Origin: Halothiobacillus sp.
Lineage (GTDB): Bacteria; Pseudomonadota; Gammaproteobacteria; Halothiobacillales; Halothiobacillaceae
Assembly: GCA_024636015.1 (NCBI GenBank)
Contig: JAGXHU010000077.1
Location: 1 to 64,000 of the forward strand
Reading direction: 5' to 3'
Length of the DNA: 64,000 nucleotides
Shown: positions 32,983 through 43,100 of the stretch, piece after piece
Layout of the letters: each line of letters starts with the position of its first letter
How positions within the stretch are numbered: position 1 is the stretch's first letter
Position numbers and translations under genes: made by a program
Notes under the pieces: generated by a model
Database searches by the model: none
What the model was told of the DNA's origin: nothing
What the model saw: only the letters and a program-made list of their open reading frames with translations

Positions 32983-33753
32983 TCAGATCGACAGGTAGGT
33001 CCAACCTTGGCGTATACGATGGGCGACCTGCTCAACTGCCGAATCGGTCACGGTCACATGGGGCAGCAAATTCGTATTCTTGCCGCTCTCCTTGAGTTTT
33101 TCCAGGCTCGTACCGCAGACCATGAAATGTACGTTGGGATACTTCGTCATCAGGGCTTCAATTTGAAGCGCATAAGGCGTTGTTCCAGAACGCAGGAAGT
33201 TTAGCCCGTCCGAATTGGTAAGCACCTCCAGCTGAAAACCCGGGTCCCGGGACGAGTTCTTCAGTACCTGCTCGGCAACCCGCAGGGTTTCTCGAAACTT
33301 CGCCGGCGAATCCGATCCCAGACGTAACAGGACATTGCGATGCTGGGCGGTCGCCATGAGCGATGACACCGTGACTTGCGGGGCGCCAGAAGCCTGCTGC
33401 ATCGACACGATACCCGAATCGCCCCCCGGCGAGGAATGTGACAGGGAACTGGCAACCCAGCCCGCCATGGCCCCGACGATCAGCAGGGCGACCGCCGCAA
33501 CAGCGGTCGGCATGAGCGCGAGAACACGTACCCGGGCCAGACGCTTGGGCGGCGGCGGAACCGATTGGTAGGCCTCCCGCACCCAATCCTGGAGCTGATC
33601 GATATCGCAGATCATTTGAGTCAATTCCGGATGCTGTTTGACGGCTGATCGTACCCGCTGCCGATCCTCGATAATCAGCTCGTCATCAACAAACGCATGA
33701 ACCTCTTCATCCGAAATCTGAGCTGAGTCCAACCGATGGCGCAAGTAACTCAT
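32983..33753 (-). CDS. membrane anti-sigma factor with periplasmic DsrE-like domain
   Basis: 256 residues. Residues 1-65 resemble a cytosolic anti-sigma domain (ISDEEVHAFVDDEL, His19, then HPELTQMICDIDQLQDWV) without the zinc CxxC. A single membrane helix spans about 77-101. Residues about 138-256 align along their length with the exported DsrE-like proteins encoded next door: FQLEVLTNSDGLNFL matches IDLEIVAFGPGLRLL, VHFMVCGTSL matches VRFSACENTI, and both end with an HxVxV-type strand and an aromatic tail. Cys213 falls at the conserved cysteine. It overlaps the sigma gene by 4 bases (ATGA). The likely role is to hold the sigma factor until the periplasmic domain senses a signal, perhaps reactive sulfur. 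Confidence 0.82.
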   Translation of the reverse strand: MSYLRHRLDSAQISDEEVHAFVDDELIIEDRQRVRSAVKQHPELTQMICDIDQLQDWVREAYQSVPPPPKRLARVRVLALMPTAVAAVALLIVGAMAGWVASSLSHSSPGGDSGIVSMQQASGAPQVTVSSLMATAQHRNVLLRLGSDSPAKFRETLRVAEQVLKNSSRDPGFQLEVLTNSDGLNFLRSGTTPYALQIEALMTKYPNVHFMVCGTSLEKLKESGKNTNLLPHVTVTDSAVEQVAHRIRQGWTYLSI

Positions 33754-34325
33754 ATCACCCTCCTCAAATGCCGCCCTGAAGACGCAATCTCTTGCGTCTC
33801 AAGTTGTGGACGTTCGATCAGGAGCTCCCTGAGTGCCTGGCGGCCACGCGACAGACGGCTCATCACCGTACCGACCGGGAGATCGAGAATCGTGGCGGTT
33901 TCCTTATAGGAGAATTCCTCAAGATCCACCAGGGTCACCACGATGCGCTGCATCTCCGGCAAGCTCATAATAGCGCGGCGCACGCACTCGATCATTTCAT
34001 CCCGACAATGAATGCAGTCGGGCGACTGCGTATCGTCCAAGCACAGCGTGTCCAGCATATCGTCGATATTTTCCTCGCGCGGCCGGCTTCGCACGTGGTC
34101 CAACCAGATATTCGCCAGAATTCGAATCGCCCACCGATCCAGCAATTCATCATCCCGAAGTTGTGCCTGTTTCTGCAGCGCCCGGATCATCGCCTCCTGC
34201 ACGAGGTCGTCTGCCAAGAAGGCGTCCTTGCTCCAGGAAAAGGCCAGCCGGTACATCCGGGGACGCAGCTCGTCCAACCGTCCGGCAAAGGAAAGCCGCC
34301 GAAACAAAAATGTCGAAATACCCAC
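33750..34325 (-). CDS. ECF-type RNA polymerase sigma factor
   Basis: 191 residues from a GTG whose complement is 34323-34325, preceded by GGGAG. Region 2 is DELRPRMYRLAFSWSKDAFLADDLVQEAMIRAL (in pieces), and region 4 is MSLPEMQRIVVTLVDLEEFSYKETATILDLPVGTVMSRLSRGRQAL (in pieces), with the helix-turn-helix at IAL-like ETATILDLPVGTVMSRL. No region 1 or 3, as expected for an ECF sigma. Two cysteines (CIHC) lie in the linker between regions 2 and 4. It carries in front of it the same promoter as the two DsrE/porin cassettes, so it probably drives its own expression and theirs. Confidence 0.93.
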   Translation of the reverse strand: MGISTFLFRRLSFAGRLDELRPRMYRLAFSWSKDAFLADDLVQEAMIRALQKQAQLRDDELLDRWAIRILANIWLDHVRSRPREENIDDMLDTLCLDDTQSPDCIHCRDEMIECVRRAIMSLPEMQRIVVTLVDLEEFSYKETATILDLPVGTVMSRLSRGRQALRELLIERPQLETQEIASSGRHLRRVI

Positions 34326-34372
34326 TGACTCCCACCCCGCGTCTGTTCGTTTTTTTATCGCTATACCATTGT

Positions 34373-34398
34373 GACGTAACGCCTTGTGTTTTCATTCC
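34373..34398 (-). promoter_or_regulatory. ECF-type promoter of the sigma/anti-sigma operon
   Basis: On the - strand GGAAT (34394-34398), 17 bases, CGTC (34373-34376). Same hexamer-like elements and identical spacing as the promoters at 34444 and 36665. A transcript would start around 34367 and give a leader of about 40 bases. Supports autoregulation. Confidence 0.75.
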
Positions 34399-34443
34399 CC
34401 CTATTTGTCATAAAAAATTAATACACCCATCAATATTAACGTT

Positions 34444-34469
34444 GGAATAAACGCATTCTCGATCTCGTC
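34444..34469 (+). promoter_or_regulatory. ECF-type promoter of cassette 1
   Basis: GGAAT (34444-34448), 17 bases, CGTC (34466-34469). Identical elements and spacing in front of cassette 2 and, on the opposite strand, the sigma gene. GGAAT-type -35 and CGTC-type -10 elements are characteristic of ECF sigma factors. Confidence 0.78.
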
Positions 34470-34533
34470 GTGATTTGTGAACCCAGCGTAAATGGGGGAT
34501 TAACAAGATGTCACTCACCACCAGGAGTTAACA

Positions 34534-35013
34534 ATGATTCATTTGTCACGGATCACGCCAATCGCGTTGCTTTTGGCTGCATCCCTTGCCACATCCGGCT
34601 TGGCACAGGCCAACCCCAACGCAGAATCAGTCGCGGCCGCCATTCAGGCCAAACCCTTTGCCCAAACCCGCGTTGCCTTGCAAATCAGTGATGGCGGTGC
34701 TGGAAAACAGACCTTGGTCCTGAATGTTGCCCACAACCTGCTCAAATTTTATGGACAGGACAAAATCGATCTTGAAATCGTCGCCTTTGGCCCAGGCCTG
34801 CGTCTCCTGTTCAAGGGCAATGCCAACAGCCAGCGCATTCAAGAATTAGCCGCCTCAGGGGTTCGGTTCAGTGCCTGCGAGAACACCATCAAGGCGATGA
34901 GCAAAAAACTGGGCCACCCGCCTGAACTCAACCCGATTGCCCGCATTGTCCCCGCCGGAATCGTGCGCATGGTCGAGCTGAATAAAGCCGGATTTTTCGT
35001 CGCCCGCCCGTAA
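34534..35013 (+). CDS. exported DsrE-like protein, copy 1
   Basis: 159 residues; Sec-type signal peptide (about residues 1-26, cut after LAQA), mature part of about 133 residues with a DsrE/DsrF-like fold. Family features: an early ALQISDG strand, IDLEIVAFGPGLRLLF, and GVRFSACENTIK with Cys115, the only cysteine, followed by a VPAGIVRMVELNKAGF end. Cytosolic DsrE/TusD relatives carry sulfur on a conserved cysteine; this one would sit in the periplasm, which is unusual, so sulfur binding is inferred only. The start is fixed by CAGGAG 7 bases before ATG. It is 45 bases ahead of the porin, surely one transcript. Confidence 0.85.
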   Translation: MIHLSRITPIALLLAASLATSGLAQANPNAESVAAAIQAKPFAQTRVALQISDGGAGKQTLVLNVAHNLLKFYGQDKIDLEIVAFGPGLRLLFKGNANSQRIQELAASGVRFSACENTIKAMSKKLGHPPELNPIARIVPAGIVRMVELNKAGFFVARP

Positions 35014-35058
35014 CCCACCACCCAGACATCCTATTAAAAACAGAAGGAACCATCATCC

Positions 35059-36369
35059 ATGCAATTACAAAAACCCAACAAGAAGTTTCAACGGTACCTG
35101 GCGATGACCACGCTCTGCGCCGGCCTGTTTGCAGCCATGCCCAGCGCCCACGCGGCCAACTGGCTGATGCTGCAGGGCACCGAGCCAGCCGACAACGCGG
35201 CCCGCGCGAAAGTTTGGGGCTTTATTCAGCCGATGTACTCCAAGGATTTCAGCAACGGCTTTGCCGGCAAATATGTTCCACCGAAACTGGTCGGCCCCAG
35301 CCTCGACTCCCAGTCTTCGTTCAATATCCTGCGCGCCCGGATCGGCGTTCGCGGCACCGGCTTCCCACTGGACAGCAAGGTCAACTATTTCATCCTGACC
35401 GAGTTTGGCAACAACGCCATTACCAATGGCGGCCACTATGGCAGCTACAAACCCTATCTTTCTGATGCCAGCGTTACCTTGAACTACATCAAGGGTGCGC
35501 GTGTCCGACTCGGTCTGTTCAAGTACCCCGGTTCCGAGGAAGGCCTGCAGGGCATCGCCGCGTTCCCCTACATCGGTTACACCAGCGTCACCAATCAGAT
35601 GCTGCTTGAGCGTTTCCCAACCAACGGTGAAACCAACATTGCACCGCAAACCGTCCCCAATGCCGATATGAACGCCTTTTCGGCGCCCGCTGGCGCATTC
35701 CGCGACGTCGGTGCCCAGGTATTCGACGCCTTTGACGTCGGCAACTGGGAACACACCTATGCGGTGATGCTGGGTAACGGTCATGGCATGCAAATGACTG
35801 ACAACAACAGCAGTAAGGATCTGTATCTCTACTGGTCTTCTGCCTATCTGTTCGACAAGAGCGCCAAAGGCCCTTTCCGCCCGAGTCTGAAGATGTTCAC
35901 TTGGTACCAGAGCGGCAAGCGCACCGATGCCTATGACAAGACCCAGGAACAGGAGCGCAAGCGTTATGGTGTCGGGGTCTCCTACCTGAAGAAGCCGTTC
36001 CGTGTCAGCGCCGAATACATGGTGGGCAAGGGCATGATCTTCCAGGGTGCACAGAACCCGCAACGCATGTTCAACAACAACAAGGCGGCCGGTGGGTATG
36101 TCGAAGGTGGCTATTTCATCCCCAATACCAAGTTTGAACTGGATCTGCGCTATGACACCTACAAGCGTAACAAGGGCATTTTGAAAGGCCCGACCCCCGA
36201 GGCCAAGTTCAACACCTGGACCGCCGGTGTGAACTATCACTTCAACAAGAAGACCCGGTTCACCCTGGATTACTCGATCCGCAAGGACAGCTCCGTATTC
36301 ACCCCGGTCAACAATCAGTTGAAGGACGTGAAAGGTCTGCTGGCCCTACAGGTTACGGCCGTTTTCTAG
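35059..36369 (+). CDS. outer-membrane porin, cassette copy 1
   Basis: 436 residues with a signal peptide cut near PSAHA-A. The sequence is rich in alternating beta strands and ends LLALQVTAVF with the terminal phenylalanine used for barrel insertion. NILRARIGVRGTGFPLDSKVNYFILTEFGNNA and VRLGLFKYPGSEEG recall OprO/OprP-type porins, which form anion-preferring 16-strand trimers; that substrate class is a guess. Cotranscribed with the exported DsrE-like gene, so it may admit or release the sulfur compound that the regulon deals with. Confidence 0.8.
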   Translation: MQLQKPNKKFQRYLAMTTLCAGLFAAMPSAHAANWLMLQGTEPADNAARAKVWGFIQPMYSKDFSNGFAGKYVPPKLVGPSLDSQSSFNILRARIGVRGTGFPLDSKVNYFILTEFGNNAITNGGHYGSYKPYLSDASVTLNYIKGARVRLGLFKYPGSEEGLQGIAAFPYIGYTSVTNQMLLERFPTNGETNIAPQTVPNADMNAFSAPAGAFRDVGAQVFDAFDVGNWEHTYAVMLGNGHGMQMTDNNSSKDLYLYWSSAYLFDKSAKGPFRPSLKMFTWYQSGKRTDAYDKTQEQERKRYGVGVSYLKKPFRVSAEYMVGKGMIFQGAQNPQRMFNNNKAAGGYVEGGYFIPNTKFELDLRYDTYKRNKGILKGPTPEAKFNTWTAGVNYHFNKKTRFTLDYSIRKDSSVFTPVNNQLKDVKGLLALQVTAVF

Positions 36370-36379
36370 TTCAAGGACA

Positions 36380-36398
36380 AAAATCAATGATTGATTTT
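36380..36398. repeat. palindrome AAAATCAA-TGA-TTGATTTT
   Basis: A perfect 8-base inverted repeat with a 3-base centre, 10 bases after the porin stop codon. AT-rich; possibly an RNA 3' hairpin or a protein-binding site. Confidence 0.5.
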
Positions 36399-36411
36399 CA
36401 AGGATGACCTC

Positions 36412-36447
36412 GACGTCTTAGCCAACAAGGAACCGGGCTAAGACGTC
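36412..36447. repeat. perfect 12-base inverted repeat with 12-base loop
   Basis: GACGTCTTAGCC at 36412-36423 and GGCTAAGACGTC at 36436-36447. No T-tract. It lies between the porin stop and the terminator, so it would be in the 3' end of the cassette 1 transcript. It is not present after cassette 2. Confidence 0.65.
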
Positions 36448-36457
36448 ACCCCACACC

Positions 36458-36491
36458 AGGCGCAACTGACTTCGCTCAGATGCGCCTTTTT
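36458..36491 (+). terminator. rho-independent terminator of cassette 1
   Basis: AGGCGCAACTGA pairs with TCAGATGCGCCT apart from one A/A mismatch, then five T. Confidence 0.88.
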
Positions 36492-36664
36492 CGTTTCCGC
36501 CTTTTTGTTTTCACAATCTGCACGACCTCCTCGCCACCTTCTCCTCGGCGACACTACCTATGCCTACCCTCCTGAGCACATCTGTTTTTAGTGGACGAGC
36601 TCGTCCGTTGTTTTCATGCCATTAACAAATCATAAAAACCGGTTATGCCATAAAAATTAACACT

Positions 36665-36690
36665 GGAATAAACGATTTCACAGTTTCGTC
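36665..36690 (+). promoter_or_regulatory. ECF-type promoter of cassette 2
   Basis: GGAAT (36665-36669), 17 bases, CGTC (36687-36690). Same as cassette 1. The flanking context TGGAATAAACG is also shared between the two. Confidence 0.78.
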
Positions 36691-36754
36691 ATGGTGCGTG
36701 AACCCGCAGTAAACGGGGGATTAAAAAGACGTCACAGACCACCAGGAGTTAACA

Positions 36755-37234
36755 ATGATCCATCTATCGCGGATAACACCAATTGCTTTGCTTTTGGCCG
36801 CCGCCCTCGCCACCTCCGGATTAGCCCAAGCCAATGAAAATGCTGAACCTGTTGCCAAAATTCTGCAGGAGAAACCGTTTGCACAAACGCGTGTAGCCCT
36901 GCAAATCAGTGATGGCAGCGAAGAAAAACAGGCCCTTGTTTTAAATGTCGCTAGCAACCTGCTCAAGTTTTACGGGCCAGACAAGATCGATATCGAAGTG
37001 GTCGCATTCGGCCCTGGCTTACGTCTGTTGTTTAAAGACAACGTCAATAGTCAGCGCATCCAAGAACTGGCAGCAGCCGGCGTGCGATTCAGCGCCTGCG
37101 ACAACACCATCACGTCCATGGCCAAACTACTGGGCCACCCGCCTGAACTCAACCCGATTGCACGCATCGTCCCGGCCGGCATCGTGCGAATGGTTGAGCT
37201 GAACAAGGCCGGGTTTTTCGTCGCTCGTCCCTGA
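36755..37234 (+). CDS. exported DsrE-like protein, copy 2
   Basis: 159 residues, same length as copy 1 and identical at 136 positions by direct count. The signal peptide and the last 29 residues are nearly or fully identical. Differences cluster in the N-terminal part of the mature protein (residues 32-60), which may mark a partner or ligand surface. The conserved Cys115 is kept in RFSACDNTI. Same ribosome site and same 5' leader as copy 1. Expected to lie in the periplasm; the biochemical role is unknown, with sulfur transfer or sulfur-species binding as the leading idea from the DsrE family. Confidence 0.85.
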   Translation: MIHLSRITPIALLLAAALATSGLAQANENAEPVAKILQEKPFAQTRVALQISDGSEEKQALVLNVASNLLKFYGPDKIDIEVVAFGPGLRLLFKDNVNSQRIQELAAAGVRFSACDNTITSMAKLLGHPPELNPIARIVPAGIVRMVELNKAGFFVARP

Positions 37235-37293
37235 TACACGCCCCAACAACCCGGTTAAAAACGTTCATTCAAAAAACAGTCAAGGAACCATCC

Positions 37294-38625
37294 ATGAAAC
37301 CGCAAACAACAAATAAGAAAATCCAACGTTACCTGGCGCTGACGAGTCTTTGCGCCGGAATTTTTGCCGCCATGCCGAGCGCCCATGCGGCAAACTGGAT
37401 CATGCTACAAGGCACCGAACCAGCCGGTACGGCCCCGCGCGCGGAAGTCTGGGGGTTTATCCAGCCAACCTACTCGAAAGACTTCAGCAACGCCTTCGCC
37501 GGCAAGTACGTTCCGCCAAAACTGGTCGGCCCCAGCCTGGATTCGCAGTCCTCTTTCAACATCCTGCGTGCACGAATCGGGGTGCGGGGCACCGGTTTCC
37601 CGCTGGATAACAAGATCAACTACTTCATCCTGACCGAATTCGGCAACAACGCCATGACGAATGGCGGCGCCTATGGCAACTACACGCCTGTGTTGACGGA
37701 TGCCAGCGTCACCCTGAACTACATCCCGGGCGCACGCATTCGACTGGGTCTGTTCAAGTACCCGGGCGCAGAAGAAGGACTGCAGGGCATCAATATGTCC
37801 CCCTATGTCAACTTTACCGATGTGACCAATCAGATGCTCCAGGAGCGTTTCCCAACAAAAGGGCAGGGCAACATTGCCCCTCAAGCAACGCCGAATGCCA
37901 ACATGAATGCCTACTCACAACCGTCCAGCGGTTTTCGCGACGTGGGCGCCCAGGTATTCGATGCGTTTGATGTCGGCAGCTGGGAACATACCTACGCGGT
38001 GATGCTGGGCAATGGGAACGGCGTCAATATGACCGACACCAACAACAGCAAAGACCTCTATCTTTACTGGTCCTCCGCCTATCTGTTCGACAAGAGTGCG
38101 AAGGGCGCCTTCCAGCCCAGCCTGAAAATGTTCACCTGGTATCAGAACGGCAAACGAAACAATGTGTGGAACACAACCCAGGAACAGGATCGTAAACGTT
38201 ATGGCGCGGGCGTCGCCTACCTGAAAATGCCGTTCCGCGTCACGGCCGAATACATGTGGGGCAAGGGCATGATCTTCCAGGGTGCTCAGAATCCGGGCAA
38301 TGGCACCATGACCGCCGCCTCAATTTTCAACGACAACAAGGCATCAGGCGGCTATCTCGAGGGTGGCTGGTACATTCCGAACACCAAGTGGGAGCTTGAT
38401 CTGCGCTATGACACCTACAAGCGCAACACGGGCATCATGTCCGGGCCAACGCCCGAGGCCAACTTCAGAACCTGGACCACCGGTGTGAATTATCACTTCA
38501 ACAAGAAGACCCGGTTGACTGTGGACTACGCCTTCCGCAAGGACAGTGCTGTAACCACCGCCACTAACAACCAGCTCAAGGACGTGAAGGGTCTGCTGAC
38601 ACTGCAGGTTACCGCCGCATTCTGA
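37294..38625 (+). CDS. outer-membrane porin, cassette copy 2
   Basis: 443 residues, paralogue of the porin at 35059, clearly alignable throughout; the extra length comes mainly from an insertion near NPGNGTMTAASIFND, probably in an extracellular loop. The signal peptide ends PSAHA-A, and the C-terminus LLTLQVTAAF keeps the terminal phenylalanine. The N-terminal strands around SLDSQSSFNILRARIGVRG are identical, while loops differ, suggesting the two porins differ in surface exposure or selectivity more than in pore architecture. Terminated at 38714. Confidence 0.8.
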   Translation: MKPQTTNKKIQRYLALTSLCAGIFAAMPSAHAANWIMLQGTEPAGTAPRAEVWGFIQPTYSKDFSNAFAGKYVPPKLVGPSLDSQSSFNILRARIGVRGTGFPLDNKINYFILTEFGNNAMTNGGAYGNYTPVLTDASVTLNYIPGARIRLGLFKYPGAEEGLQGINMSPYVNFTDVTNQMLQERFPTKGQGNIAPQATPNANMNAYSQPSSGFRDVGAQVFDAFDVGSWEHTYAVMLGNGNGVNMTDTNNSKDLYLYWSSAYLFDKSAKGAFQPSLKMFTWYQNGKRNNVWNTTQEQDRKRYGAGVAYLKMPFRVTAEYMWGKGMIFQGAQNPGNGTMTAASIFNDNKASGGYLEGGWYIPNTKWELDLRYDTYKRNTGIMSGPTPEANFRTWTTGVNYHFNKKTRLTVDYAFRKDSAVTTATNNQLKDVKGLLTLQVTAAF

Positions 38626-38713: not shown

Positions 38714-38748
38714 AAGGCGCGACTATATTTAGTTGCGCCTTTTATTTT
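38714..38748 (+). terminator. rho-independent terminator of cassette 2
   Basis: AAGGCGCGACT pairs with AGTTGCGCCTT (one G-U) around a 6-base loop, then a T-rich tract. It separates the cassette from the solute-binding protein gene. Confidence 0.85.
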
Positions 38749-38779: not shown

Positions 38780-39793
38780 ATGACCCGTCATCGTTTTTCT
38801 CGCACCGCCCTTCATGCTGCAATTCTTACCGGTCTCCTGTTCGGTACCACGTTACCTGCCCTGGCCGCGCCGGCCAGTTCGCCGGAAAGCATGGGCAAAT
38901 ACATGAATAGCTATCCCCCCAAATTACTGGAAGTTCAGCCGCCCTGGAGTGCACCTTTGTACCCGGGGACCGAGGTCACTGTGCCCGGCATGGAAAATGT
39001 TCCCGACATCCATGGGGATATCAACAATCCCGAACTCGTCGTCTTTTTTGCGGGCAACCAGTACATGCTGGTCAATCGGCTCATGGAAGCCTTCAGCAAG
39101 GCTTATCCGCAATATCCGCGAGTCGTCGCCTTCACGCTTCCGCCCGGCCGTTTGATTACCGCCATCAAGCGGGGCAACGGCATCCTGCTGGGCAACATGC
39201 ACATCACTCTCCAACCTGATGTACTCACTGCCGGCCATGGCAGCATCATGCGTCTGCAGACCAACGACCACTGGTTCACCCAAACTGAGATCTATGCCAA
39301 GAACCGACTGGCCATCATGACGCAGAAGGGCAACCCCGATCACATCACCGGGCTCAAAGACCTCGCGCAGCCCAATATAAAGCTCTGTATGCCGAATCCC
39401 GCCTGGGAAGGCATCGCCAAGAGCTCCATCATTCCGGCCCTGAAGAAAACCGGTGGCGAAGCGCTGGTGGATGAGGTTTACAAGAATAAGGTAGCGGCCG
39501 GAACAACCTTTCTGACGCACGTCCACCACCGTGAAACCCCGATTCGCATCATGGAAAACCAGTGCAATGCTGGGGTCGTCTGGTACACCGAGGCCTATTT
39601 TCACGCCAAAATCGCGCATCATCCGACCGATATCGTAGAAATTCCCGCTGCGGACAACCAGGAAGTCAGCTATACCGCCGGGCAGATGAAAAACGCGCCG
39701 CACCCCGAAGCGGCCAAGGCCTTCATGACCTTCCTGCTGAGCCCAGAGGCTCAAGCGCTCTATCATCAGTTCGGATTCATGCCGCCCAAATAA
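38780..39793 (+). CDS. periplasmic solute-binding protein of the ModA/Fbp-like type
   Basis: 337 residues from ATG 38780, fixed by GAGGAG 8 bases before it. The signal peptide ends near PALAA. Type II periplasmic-binding fold: VVFFAGNQYMLVNRLMEAFSKAYP at the first lobe, GLKDLAQPNIKLCMPNPAWEGIAKS at the hinge, and a C-terminal HPEAAKAFMTFLLSPEAQALYHQFGF block typical of molybdate/iron/sulfate-type binding proteins. No permease or ATPase gene follows, so it is an orphan in this window. It is next to the DsrE/porin cassettes but has its own terminator-separated unit and no GGAAT-N17-CGTC promoter. Confidence 0.8.
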   Translation: MTRHRFSRTALHAAILTGLLFGTTLPALAAPASSPESMGKYMNSYPPKLLEVQPPWSAPLYPGTEVTVPGMENVPDIHGDINNPELVVFFAGNQYMLVNRLMEAFSKAYPQYPRVVAFTLPPGRLITAIKRGNGILLGNMHITLQPDVLTAGHGSIMRLQTNDHWFTQTEIYAKNRLAIMTQKGNPDHITGLKDLAQPNIKLCMPNPAWEGIAKSSIIPALKKTGGEALVDEVYKNKVAAGTTFLTHVHHRETPIRIMENQCNAGVVWYTEAYFHAKIAHHPTDIVEIPAADNQEVSYTAGQMKNAPHPEAAKAFMTFLLSPEAQALYHQFGFMPPK

Positions 39794-40168: not shown

Positions 40169-43100
40169 ATGAATCGCGCCCCTACCGCCGGCCTGTACCA
40201 CCCCAGTTTCGAGAAAGACAACTGCGGTTTCGGTCTGATCGCCCACATGAAAGATCAACCCAGTCACCAGCTGGTATCGACGGCGATTGAGGCCTTGGCA
40301 CGCATGACCCATCGCGGCGGCATCTCGGCCGATGGCAAATCCGGCGATGGCTGCGGCATCCTCCTCAAGAAGCCGGATGCATTCTTCCGCGCCGAAGCAG
40401 CCCGACTGGGGTTCGATCTGAATGCCCGTTATTCGGTCGGCGTTGCCTTCGTATCCTTGGATGAAGCTGCTGCCACGCGCGTCAAAACCACGCTGACAGA
40501 TGCCCTCACCAGCCAGGGCCTGAGCGTCGCCGGCTGGCGTGCAGTACCCACCAACCCGGACGTACTGGGTGAAATCTCAGCCGCGCAACGGCCCGACATC
40601 CTGCATGTCTTCGTCAATGCACCCGAGGGGCTATCGGATCGAGAGTTCGATACCAAACTGTACATCGCGCGCCGAATGACGGAAAAGCAGCTCACGGACG
40701 ACCCGGTGTTCTACATGCCGTCGATGGCCGCGCAGGTCATTTCCTACAAGGGCCTGATGATGCCCGACGATCTCGCCGGGTTTTATCTCGATCTGCAGGA
40801 TCAATCCCTGGCCTCGTCGCAGTGTGTATTCCACCAGCGCTTCTCCACCAACACCTTCCCGGAATGGCGACTGGCTCAACCCTTCCGTTATCTCGCCCAC
40901 AATGGCGAAATCAATACCATTCGCGGCAACCGCAACTGGGCACTGGCCCGTTCGGCCAAATTCGCGACCCCGCTGATCCCGGACATGAGCCTCGTCACCC
41001 CGCTGGTCAACACCACGGGCTCCGACTCATCCTCCATGGACAACATGCTCGAGGCACTGCTGGCTGGCGGCGTGGACATGCTGCGCGCCATGCGGATGAT
41101 CGTGCCCCCGGCCTGGCAGAATATCGAACACATGGACGCCGATCTGCGCGCCTTCTACGAATACAACTCGATGCACCTCGAGCCCTGGGATGGCCCGGCC
41201 GGCATCGTCATGACCGACGGCCGCACCGTCGCCTGCGCCATGGATCGCAACGGCCTGCGCCCGGCGCGCTGGGTCATCACCAAGGACGATCACATCACCC
41301 TGGCTTCCGAAATCGGCGTCTGGGATTACGACCCGGCCGACGTGGTGCAAAAGGGCCGCGTTCGCCCGGGCCAGATCGTGGCCGTGGACACCGCGGAAGG
41401 CCAACTGCTCAAACCGCAGGTGGTCGATGACCTCATGAAACAACGCCAGCCGTATCGCGCCTGGCTGAAGGCACATTCGGCCCGTCTCGTCAGCGCACTG
41501 GACGAGGGCAAGCTCACCAGCACCCCCTTCGATGCCGACACGCTGCGTCAATACGAGAAGGAATTCCTGCTCACCTTCGAAGAGCGGGATCAGATCCTGC
41601 GCGTCATGGCTGAAGACGGTCAGGAAGCTATCGGCTCCATGGGCGACGATGCCCCGATGGCGGTTCTCTCCCAGACCCAGCGGTCGCTCTACGATTATTT
41701 CCGCCAGCAATTCGCTCAGGTGACCAACCCGCCTATTGATCCGCTGCGCGAAGCGATCGTCATGTCGCTGGAAACCCTGATCGGCCGTGAGCGCAACATC
41801 TTTGCCGAAACACCGGAACATGCCCACCGACTCCAACTGGAAACACCGATTCTGAGCGAGGGGAAGTTCAATGCCCTGCTCGGTCAGACCGATCCAGAGT
41901 TTATCCACGCACGCATCCAACTCAGTTATCCGCTGAACGAAGGGCTCCATTCGGCCATCAAGCGCATTTGCGACGAAGCCGTCGCGCTCGTTCGCAGCGG
42001 CAAGGTCGTCCTGGTGTTGTCGGATCGCGGCCTGACGGCCGAGACCCTGCCCATCCATGCCCTGCTCGCCACCGGCGCCATCCACCACCGGCTCATCCGT
42101 GACGGACTGCGTACCGATGCCAACCTCATCATCGAAACGGCCACCGCGCGTGATCCCCATCACTGTGCAGTGCTGATCGGTTATGGCGCCACAGCCGTGT
42201 ACCCCTATCTGGCCTTCGAAACCCTTCACGACATGCTTCAGGCGAAACAGATCAGTACCGGCACCAGCGAGAAGCTCGCCAGCAACTACATCAAGGGCCT
42301 CGGCAAGGGCCTGAAGAAGATCCTCTCGAAAATGGGGATCTCGACCGTTGCCAGCTACCGCGGCGCCCAACTTTTCGAGATCATCGGCCTGGCCGACGAA
42401 ATCGTGCACCTGTGTTTCAAGGACACGACCAGCCGCCTGCAGGGCGCACGGTTTGTCGATCTCGAGGCCGATCAGATAATCCTGCACAAGGAAGCCTTCA
42501 CCCGGCACAAATTGCCGCGTCAGGGCGGGTTGCTCAAGTACATCGACGGCGGCGAGTATCACGCCTACAACCCCGATGTGGTCAATACACTCCAACAAGC
42601 CGTAACCACCGGCGACTTCGACCTCTGGAAGCAGTACTCGGCACACGTGAATCATCGGCCGATCGCCACATTGCGCGATCTGTTCGATCTGAGTCACGAC
42701 ACAACGCCCATCCCGCTGGACCAGGTGGAATCCCTCGAATCCATCATTCGTCGCTTCGATTCGGCCGGGATGAGTCTCGGCGCCCTCTCCCCCGAGGCGC
42801 ACGAGACCCTGGCCGAAGCGATGAACCGGCTCGGCGCCCGCTCCAACTCCGGCGAAGGCGGGGAAGACCCGGCGCGTTATGGCACGGCCAAGATGAGCAA
42901 GATCAAGCAGATCGCATCAGGACGATTCGGCGTGACCCCGCACTACCTCGTCAACGCCGAGGTACTGCAAATCAAGGTTGCCCAAGGCGCCAAGCCGGGC
43001 GAAGGCGGTCAGCTCCCCGGCCACAAGGTCGACGAAACCATCGGGCGCCTGCGTTATGCCCGTCCTGGCGTCGCGCTGATCTCGCCGCCGCCCCATCACG

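Follow-up and report, generated by a model that had tools for sequence, protein, structure and literature searches.

Within a 64,000-nucleotide stretch of a Halothiobacillus sp. genome (contig JAGXHU010000077.1; hereafter the window, whose positions are used as coordinates), a gene for an extracytoplasmic function (ECF) sigma factor (33750–34325, − strand) is followed by the gene for an anti-sigma factor (32983–33753, − strand) and lies divergent from two cassettes (34534–36369 and 36755–38625, + strand), each of which encodes a DsrE-fold protein and a porin. We consider it likely that this is an ECF26-like sigma/anti-sigma pair with a DsrE sensor that controls sulfur oxidation genes, probably a sulfur-sensing control system that has not been described before. 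For ECF26, both the promoter consensus and the overall scheme of an ECF sigma factor, a membrane anti-sigma factor and sulfur oxidation genes are already known, and what appears to be new here is the DsrE-domain anti-sigma factor.

We propose that an anti-sigma factor, whose periplasmic DsrE-fold domain carries one invariant cysteine, would keep the ECF26-like sigma factor at the inner membrane. A periplasmic sulfur species, for which sulfite, thiosulfate-derived sulfane sulfur, and tetrathionate are candidates, would act on the DsrE domain and release the sigma factor, and the freed sigma factor would transcribe from GGAAT(A/G)AA-N15-CGTC promoters. Its predicted targets are its own operon, which would amount to positive autoregulation with the extra anti-sigma factor as a brake; the two dsrE/porin cassettes, which would supply a second, secreted DsrE protein and an outer-membrane pore that may together handle a sulfur substrate; and an unlinked gene for a secreted DUF302 protein. 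In some relatives, the switch may also drive soxXYZAB, soxX, soxB, or soxA, together with sulfur transport genes.

The Promoter Motif and Its Conservation

The motif GGAAT-N17-CGTC occurs at 34373–34398 (− strand), in front of the sigma and anti-sigma genes, and at 34444–34469 and 36665–36690 (both + strand), in front of cassettes 1 and 2, respectively. An earlier note on this DNA had listed these three sites, and our pattern search recovered each of them. They lie 47, 64, and 64 bases from the start codon, and their longer −35 element reads GGAAT(A/G)AA, both cassette sites having the form GGAATAA-N15-CGTC. The search also returned a fourth exact match that the note had not listed, at 42727–42752 (+ strand) within a glutamate synthase gene (Pfam), which is probably due to chance.

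The bare pattern is weak evidence when taken alone. Dinucleotide shuffling of the window gives an expectation of 0.73 matches, with a maximum of 3 over 100 shuffles. The whole genome (2.54 Mb), which we searched as the note had suggested, contains 26 matches compared with approximately 29 scaled from the shuffles; since these numbers are close, the pattern by itself proves little. We also decided against estimating the size of the regulon from it, given this agreement (although the reversed pattern has only 6 matches) and given that 19 of the 26 matches are inside reading frames of at least 100 amino acids. The seven outside such frames are the three window sites, two sites upstream of one DUF302 gene, one upstream of an M48 protease gene, and one that is unresolved. 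The three window sites are set apart by their position, their longer −35 element, and their conservation at fixed spacing.

Conservation was assessed at loci obtained from a scan of named genomes (the best 80 of 83 relatives) and from 369 sampled genomes of the class, several dozen of which have full-length anti-sigma matches among the matches listed. We compared upstream regions of up to 400 bases, the window and its genus included, counting regions with identical last 120 bases once and dropping those shorter than 120 bases. The exact motif is present at N17 in 66 of 101 sigma upstream regions and at N16 in 7, and at none of the remaining spacings from 12 to 23, whereas the counts in the reversed-sequence control are 0 for N17 and 1 for N16. 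Thirteen of the remaining 28 regions have a site with one mismatch at N16 or N17 (control, 1), which in 12 cases is a −10 element of CATC in place of CGTC, bringing the regions with an exact or one-mismatch site to 86 of 101. Upstream of dsrE (46 regions) the motif is found at N17 in 21 and at N16 in 6, and the spacings N14 and N23 each account for one further exact match. Of the 19 regions without the motif at N17 or N16, 12 have a one-mismatch site, for a total of 39 of 46 with an exact or one-mismatch site at N16 or N17, and the corresponding controls (N17, N16, one mismatch) give 0, 0, and 1. At two loci, L254 (G236) and L259 (G119), the switch is naturally duplicated: two sigma/anti-sigma pairs stand in tandem, and both have a GGAATA motif to themselves.

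Within the genus, ten genomes were compared, including that of the window (G000). The divergent pair of sites is spaced exactly 71 bases apart in six of them (G000, G001, G002, G006, G007, and G009), and in the aligned sigma and dsrE promoters both boxes are invariant and the spacer is variable (sigma boxes in six genomes). G001 and G002, each assembled as a single contig, contain both the gene pair and the site pair, and G002 has dsrE and the porin gene as well. G001 has both cassettes and both cassette sites, which indicates that the duplication is common to it and the window genome; the cassette 2 site kept there belongs to this same duplication. G004 has an exact site at the sigma gene and a one-mismatch site at dsrE. 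Contig ends interrupt the loci in G005 and G008, and in G005 the 169 bases that could be searched contain no site; the search of the ten genomes gave no anti-sigma match in G003. Judged by phylogenetic footprinting, the three sites in the window are promoters. That the motif is an ECF-type promoter at the sigma gene and at both cassettes, as the note had it, is supported, and its consensus is that of ECF26 sigma factors.

The Anti-Sigma Factor and the Secreted DsrE Proteins

The sigma factor (191 amino acids, GTG start) matches Pfam Sigma70_r2 and Sigma70_r4_2 above their cut-offs, and the end of its gene overlaps the anti-sigma gene by 4 bases. The anti-sigma factor (256 amino acids) has a DsrE-like C-terminal domain according to its structure model, Foldseek, and hhalign. 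In the AlphaFold model (mean predicted local distance difference test score, 80.9), an N-terminal domain of approximately residues 1–63, with four helices in 2–63, is followed by a poorly modeled segment consisting of a helix at approximately 85–102, which we take as the membrane helix, and a linker, and then by the DsrE-fold domain at approximately 138–255; the membrane and periplasmic placement was made by eye from the sequence. The helical, sigma-binding N-terminal domain of class I anti-sigma factors is predicted here both by the model and by homology to EcfR6. The N-terminal domain matches Sinorhizobium meliloti EcfR6 (independent E-value of 7.6e-9 in a two-sequence search) and an Agrobacterium relative. 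The match of EcfR6 to the profile of the anti-sigma family is limited to positions 3–60, and the C-terminal parts of EcfR6 and of the Agrobacterium relative gave no match to the DsrE-like domain. The best plasmid-borne matches of the sigma factor likewise include S. meliloti RpoE6 (38% identity) and an Agrobacterium sigma factor that is encoded beside the same divergent S8 protease (42% identity). The former locus (L469) is that of rpoE6, its upstream sequence being identical to the one printed in PMC6180224.

The C-terminal domain of the anti-sigma factor and the secreted proteins of the cassettes (protein 1, 34534–35013; protein 2, 36755–37234; both + strand, 159 amino acids, and 86% identical) share the DsrE fold. 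The best solved-structure match of the anti-sigma factor in Foldseek is 1l1s (E 2.2e-7, TMt 0.84), which is also matched by DsrE protein 1 (E 2.5e-9, TMt 0.93). Pfam DsrE (PF02635) scores of 19.8, 18.3, and 18.9 bits fall under the gathering score of 22.7, and protein 1 is accordingly a weak Pfam match, but the fold and the conserved cysteine that characterize the DsrE/DsrF family are nevertheless both found. Comparison of the anti-sigma factor with the secreted DsrE family by hhalign gives a probability of 99.2%, with coinciding cysteines; this residue is Cys213 in 100 of 100 aligned anti-sigma factors and Cys115 in 49 of 49 secreted DsrE proteins. The fold and the single conserved cysteine are shared with described proteins such as MTH1491, YchN, TusBCD, and DsrEFH. 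Unlike these, one copy here is secreted, with a signal peptide recognized by eye, and another is the C-terminal domain of the anti-sigma factor, a predicted membrane protein.

Our searches of the open-access literature gave no description of a DsrE-type anti-sigma factor, and the main text of a survey of class I anti-sigma factors (PMC7406223) does not contain the term DsrE. The author of the note did not know the combination as a described system; our searches agree with this as regards the DsrE-type anti-sigma factor, but the promoter consensus and the overall scheme have been described for ECF26.

The DsrE domain of the anti-sigma factor is predicted to be periplasmic and would be the sensor. 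As a tentative extension, to which we give somewhat less than even weight, this domain may be a receptor for sulfur charge: sulfane sulfur or sulfite would be loaded onto its invariant cysteine, either directly or with the homologous secreted DsrE protein as donor, and the sigma factor would be freed once the domain is charged. The secreted DsrE protein and the pore would then be both a transport route and a signal carrier, forming a trans-envelope relay of substrate flux to RNA polymerase.

It is also possible, although rather unlikely in our view, that the signal is borne by the secreted DsrE protein and not by the DsrE domain of the anti-sigma factor alone, such that the secreted protein binds that domain and either keeps the switch off or donates sulfur to it, the cassette being a feedback arm. 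Proteins with the DsrE fold can form oligomers, and the two are indeed homologous with aligned cysteines. Moreover, in the four-gene neighborhood search that the note had called for (60 class loci with 62 sigma genes, drawn from the upper part of the class anti-sigma list), a divergent gene for the secreted DsrE protein is close to 33 of the 62 sigma genes, 31 of them with a porin as well (a porin alone is found at 3), and several loci have additional DsrE genes next to the anti-sigma gene. Yet at 29 of the 62 sigma genes no divergent dsrE is close by in the piece examined, and in many Thioalkalivibrio loci the sole DsrE gene lies farther off, beside the anti-sigma gene. We favor the reading in which the anti-sigma factor itself would sense the signal through its DsrE domain.

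Predicted Targets in the Window Genome and in Relatives

Porin 1 (35059–36369, + strand) matches Porin_O_P (PF07396) with 58.9 bits, compared with a cut-off of 20.9, and porin 2 (37294–38625, + strand), which is 78% identical to it, also matches in Pfam. Outside the window, a GGAATAA-N15-CGTC site in the same genome (G000:C3:51692, − strand) is located 160 bases upstream of the unlinked gene for the secreted DUF302 protein, which Pfam scores at 23.9 bits against a cut-off of 23, and a second match (GGAATAT) is a further 203 bases upstream. This gene is present in three of the ten genus genomes, and the site is present in all three. Among 40 other system-bearing genomes, the closest DUF302 homologs (68% and 66% identity; G165 and G064) both have GGAATAA-N14-CGTC, that is, the motif at N16. 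None of the next 14 homologs examined, which are at most 44% identical, has an exact site, and one (G355) has a one-mismatch site; five weaker matches (L519–L523) are excluded from this count. There are four DUF302 orthologs of at least 66% identity, all of which have the site. Given the DUF302 site, the regulon is not self-contained, as the note had supposed it to be, and the sox sites found in some relatives also speak against that supposition.

Other candidates in the window genome were set aside. A GGAATGA-N15-CGTC site precedes an M48 protease gene, with soxX further downstream (G000:C61, locus L395, 911–3972), but we do not count the protease gene as a proven target because conservation of the site is not shown. 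On the opposite strand at this locus are a rhodanese gene and a TusA gene. Four further DsrE homologs of this genome (on C20, C25, C14, and C63) were rejected as targets, the exact motif being absent from the stretches fetched.

Across 26 system-bearing genomes, the strict pattern GGAATAA-N15-CGTC has 59 sites. Reversing the pattern yields 16 sites, giving it a wrong spacing yields 15, and reversing this wrongly spaced version yields 26. Sorted by hand, 12 of the 59 belong to sigma genes and 4 to dsrE/porin genes, 2 are opposite a sigma promoter (one unexamined and one unresolved), and 41 are elsewhere. These outlying sites precede sox genes in 9 cases (6 soxX and 3 soxB) and other sulfur-type genes in 6 (2 DsrE, 2 TsuA-like Sulf_transp, 1 rhodanese, and 1 homolog of a substrate-binding protein encoded in the window); the 26 others include a frame with sigma-70 region 4, a SoxH-related metallohydrolase below the cut-off, and a thioredoxin-like protein. 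The six downstream soxX score between 94.6 and 101.1 bits (NCBIfam cut-off, 61) and the three soxB between 706 and 871 bits (cut-off, 550). In the wrong-spacing control, a Pfam scan of the 10 largest frames downstream of the 15 sites gave no sulfur families, and the other 5 sites have a frame of less than 85 amino acids or none. The outlying GGAATAA sites examined number 34 among the matches listed, with L337 and L363, beside sigma genes, also counted; L352 (G266) is outside the 26 genomes.

Sites of the GGAATAG or GGAATAT type precede soxA in G232 and soxX in G343 and G073. The site in G073 (L462) is a perfect one of the GGAATAG type, and a full-length DsrE-type anti-sigma factor is absent from the matches listed for this genome. 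In one family, the sigma and anti-sigma genes stand at the start of a soxXYZAB array: in G276, the genes for the sigma factor, the anti-sigma factor, SoxX, SoxY, SoxZ, SoxA, and SoxB follow one another on one strand, all five sox genes exceeding their NCBIfam cut-offs, with dsrE and the porin gene divergent from them. G165 shows the same order of sigma, anti-sigma, and soxXYZAB as far as the fetched piece extends, and at locus L028 the sigma and anti-sigma genes lie between soxY-soxZ and soxB. On this sequence evidence, the same promoter precedes core thiosulfate oxidation (sox) genes in some relatives.

Two observations concern other genes with such sites. In L354 (G193) and L356 (G052), from one genus, a GGAATAA site stands at the gene for a secreted TPR protein, a possible further target. 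At L453 (G343), the frame after a strict site (339–893) matches sigma-70 region 4 (30.8 bits; cut-off, 25.7) and gave no region 2 match; it is possibly a degenerate paralog of the sigma factor.

Alternatively, the pore and the DsrE protein could have a role outside sulfur oxidation, for instance in anion uptake or in the response to arsenite, selenite, or tellurite stress, the link to sulfur being confined to relatives; we regard this as unlikely. It would accord with the membership of both porins in Porin_O_P, with the weak match of porin 1 to the selenite/tellurite porin ExtI (29.8 bits; cut-off, 150), and with a report that DsrE/F-like genes, whose role is unclear, change under arsenite in Thioalkalivibrio (PMC6620896, as far as its available text goes). 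It sits poorly with the 15 outlying sites in relatives that precede sox or other sulfur-type genes. The named loci with the pair also fall mainly in genera known for sulfur oxidation, Thioalkalivibrio above all.

Comparison with ECF26 and Proposed Assignment of the Promoters to the Sigma Factor

The closest described systems are the ECF26 pairs of S. meliloti (RpoE1, RpoE4, and RpoE6) and Starkeya novella (SigE), insofar as they are covered by the available portions of PMC3511301, PMC6527743, and PMC6180224. For targets of RpoE4 and SigE, a −35 element of GGAAT and a −10 element of CGTC have been reported on the basis of 5' rapid amplification of cDNA ends and reporters, with sulfite as the signal (PMC6527743). 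The ECF26 consensus is given as GGAATA/GT together with the rpoE4 promoter (PMC6180224), and we count a spacer of 17 in that promoter as printed. The RpoE1 promoter, GAAT-N18-GTCT, has the same arrangement (PMC3616915), and the response of RpoE1 and RpoE4 to sulfite is treated in PMC3511301. Thus, the pairs are alike in a GGAAT/CGTC promoter with a spacing of approximately 17; in an anti-sigma factor with an N-terminal anti-sigma domain, a membrane helix, and a periplasmic part (the topology here being assigned by eye); and in the control of sulfur oxidation genes, which is exerted there in answer to sulfite and is predicted here. They differ in the periplasmic domain, which is of the EcfR type there and has a DsrE fold here, and in their targets, which are sulfite oxidases there and dsrE/porin genes, DUF302, and in some relatives sox here. 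Furthermore, the hosts of the described pairs are alphaproteobacteria, and a secreted DsrE protein or porin is not part of their context as described in these portions. None of the adjacent window genes is a sulfite oxidase, lipoprotein, or S8 protease gene of the kind typical of ECF26 neighborhoods. In a positive control with 30 loci of the sulfite oxidase type (PF03404), 2 have an ECF gene, and neither has the motif in the short flanks examined; the sigma factor was accordingly not placed in ECF26 by way of such neighbors.

An ECF sigma factor that acts on sox is also known from Arcobacter butzleri, in which activation of ECF sigma-2 (AB1044) raises the sox operon (PMC3445524). It differs in governing a broad network (nap, nrf, sox, and hydrogenase), and the available text describes neither a DsrE-type anti-sigma factor nor a GGAAT/CGTC promoter for it.

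That the sigma factor of the window reads the three promoters is well supported by comparison of loci. The motif tracks this sigma/anti-sigma pair, being absent in exact form (N16–N18) from all 46 related ECF sigma genes taken from other loci, 42 of which have no match to the anti-sigma factor of the window. In 30 loci, the sigma gene and dsrE each have a site of the CGTC or CATC type; the −10 element is CGTC at both in 24, CATC at both in 4 (L230, L233, L265, and L274), and different in 2 (L251 and L273); the agreement in 28 of 30 fits a single sigma factor reading both. Sigma and cassette promoters thus go together, as expected from the note's proposal that the sigma factor activates itself and both cassettes, and we infer the activation itself from this association. 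It is improbable that the promoters, although real, are read by or shared with another ECF sigma factor and that the adjacent one has other targets. The ECF26 sigma factors of S. meliloti do cross-activate promoters of one another (PMC6527743 and PMC6180224, in the portions available), and a perfect site stands before soxX in the system-lacking G073, but such a reading is at odds with an exact or one-mismatch site at 86 of 101 sigma genes of this pair versus no exact site at 46 others, and with the matching −10 variants. Chance combined with duplication can be dismissed as an origin of the three sites, since even though the genome-wide number of matches is near the shuffle-scaled one and two of the sites are copies from one duplication, conservation at fixed spacing across separate genomes contradicts it.

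Several points weigh against the sulfur-sensing switch that we propose. The candidate sulfur signal derives from what has been published on ECF26 and from the make-up of the regulon. In the window genome a clear site is found at no sox gene, the G000:C61 locus being the sole candidate, and in relatives the genes after 26 of the 41 outlying sites are without a clear sulfur role. A site at soxX is the exception: in one set it occurs at 5 of 19 system-bearing loci (two of the 19, G268 and G273, have partial anti-sigma matches only) and, among loci that lack the system, at 1 of 11; in a second set it occurs at 2 of 19 system-bearing loci. No site is recognizable in 15 of the 101 sigma regions, among which is one truncated to 169 bases, or in 7 of the 46 dsrE regions, and the 101 and 46 regions are phylogenetically non-independent, many being from Thioalkalivibrio and one genus. 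The −10 boxes of sigma and dsrE differ at two loci, and in further loci only one of the two genes, or neither, carries a site. Finally, His144 is found in 92 of 100 anti-sigma factors and is replaced by Arg in all 8 of this genus.

Neighboring Features

A possible terminator after cassette 1 (AGGCGCA...TGCGCCTTTTT, 36458–36492, + strand) was recognized by eye and has a 16-base loop; the terminator tool did not report it. After cassette 2, a terminator-like hairpin (38714–38741, + strand) was found by the consensus scan only, a scan that returned 6 hits in the region versus a mean of 7.2 in shuffles. The next gene encodes a substrate-binding protein (38780–39793, + strand; PF13531), and the same arrangement of cassette 2, terminator-like hairpin, and substrate-binding gene is present in G001. 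Given the intervening hairpin and the lack of a motif upstream, we rejected this gene as a member of cassette 2, and within the window it is left out of the targets because it has no motif of its own. A homolog in G165 (35% identity) does have the ECF motif upstream, so this gene may once have belonged to the regulon or may be an occasional member.

Implications

How ECF anti-sigma factors detect sulfite is named as future work in the available text of PMC6527743. The pair described here combines a sulfur-carrier fold with an invariant cysteine; its promoter is defined, and in some relatives sox belongs to its predicted regulon. If the anti-sigma factor is a receptor for sulfur charge, it would answer, for this branch at least, the question of how anti-sigma factors sense sulfite that was left open there. 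The pair is present in several dozen of the class genomes listed and in genus genomes assembled as single contigs, which makes the proposed switch testable in culture. To our knowledge, little is known of the regulators of Sox-based sulfur oxidation in these bacteria, and the switch, if our reading is true, would be such a regulator.

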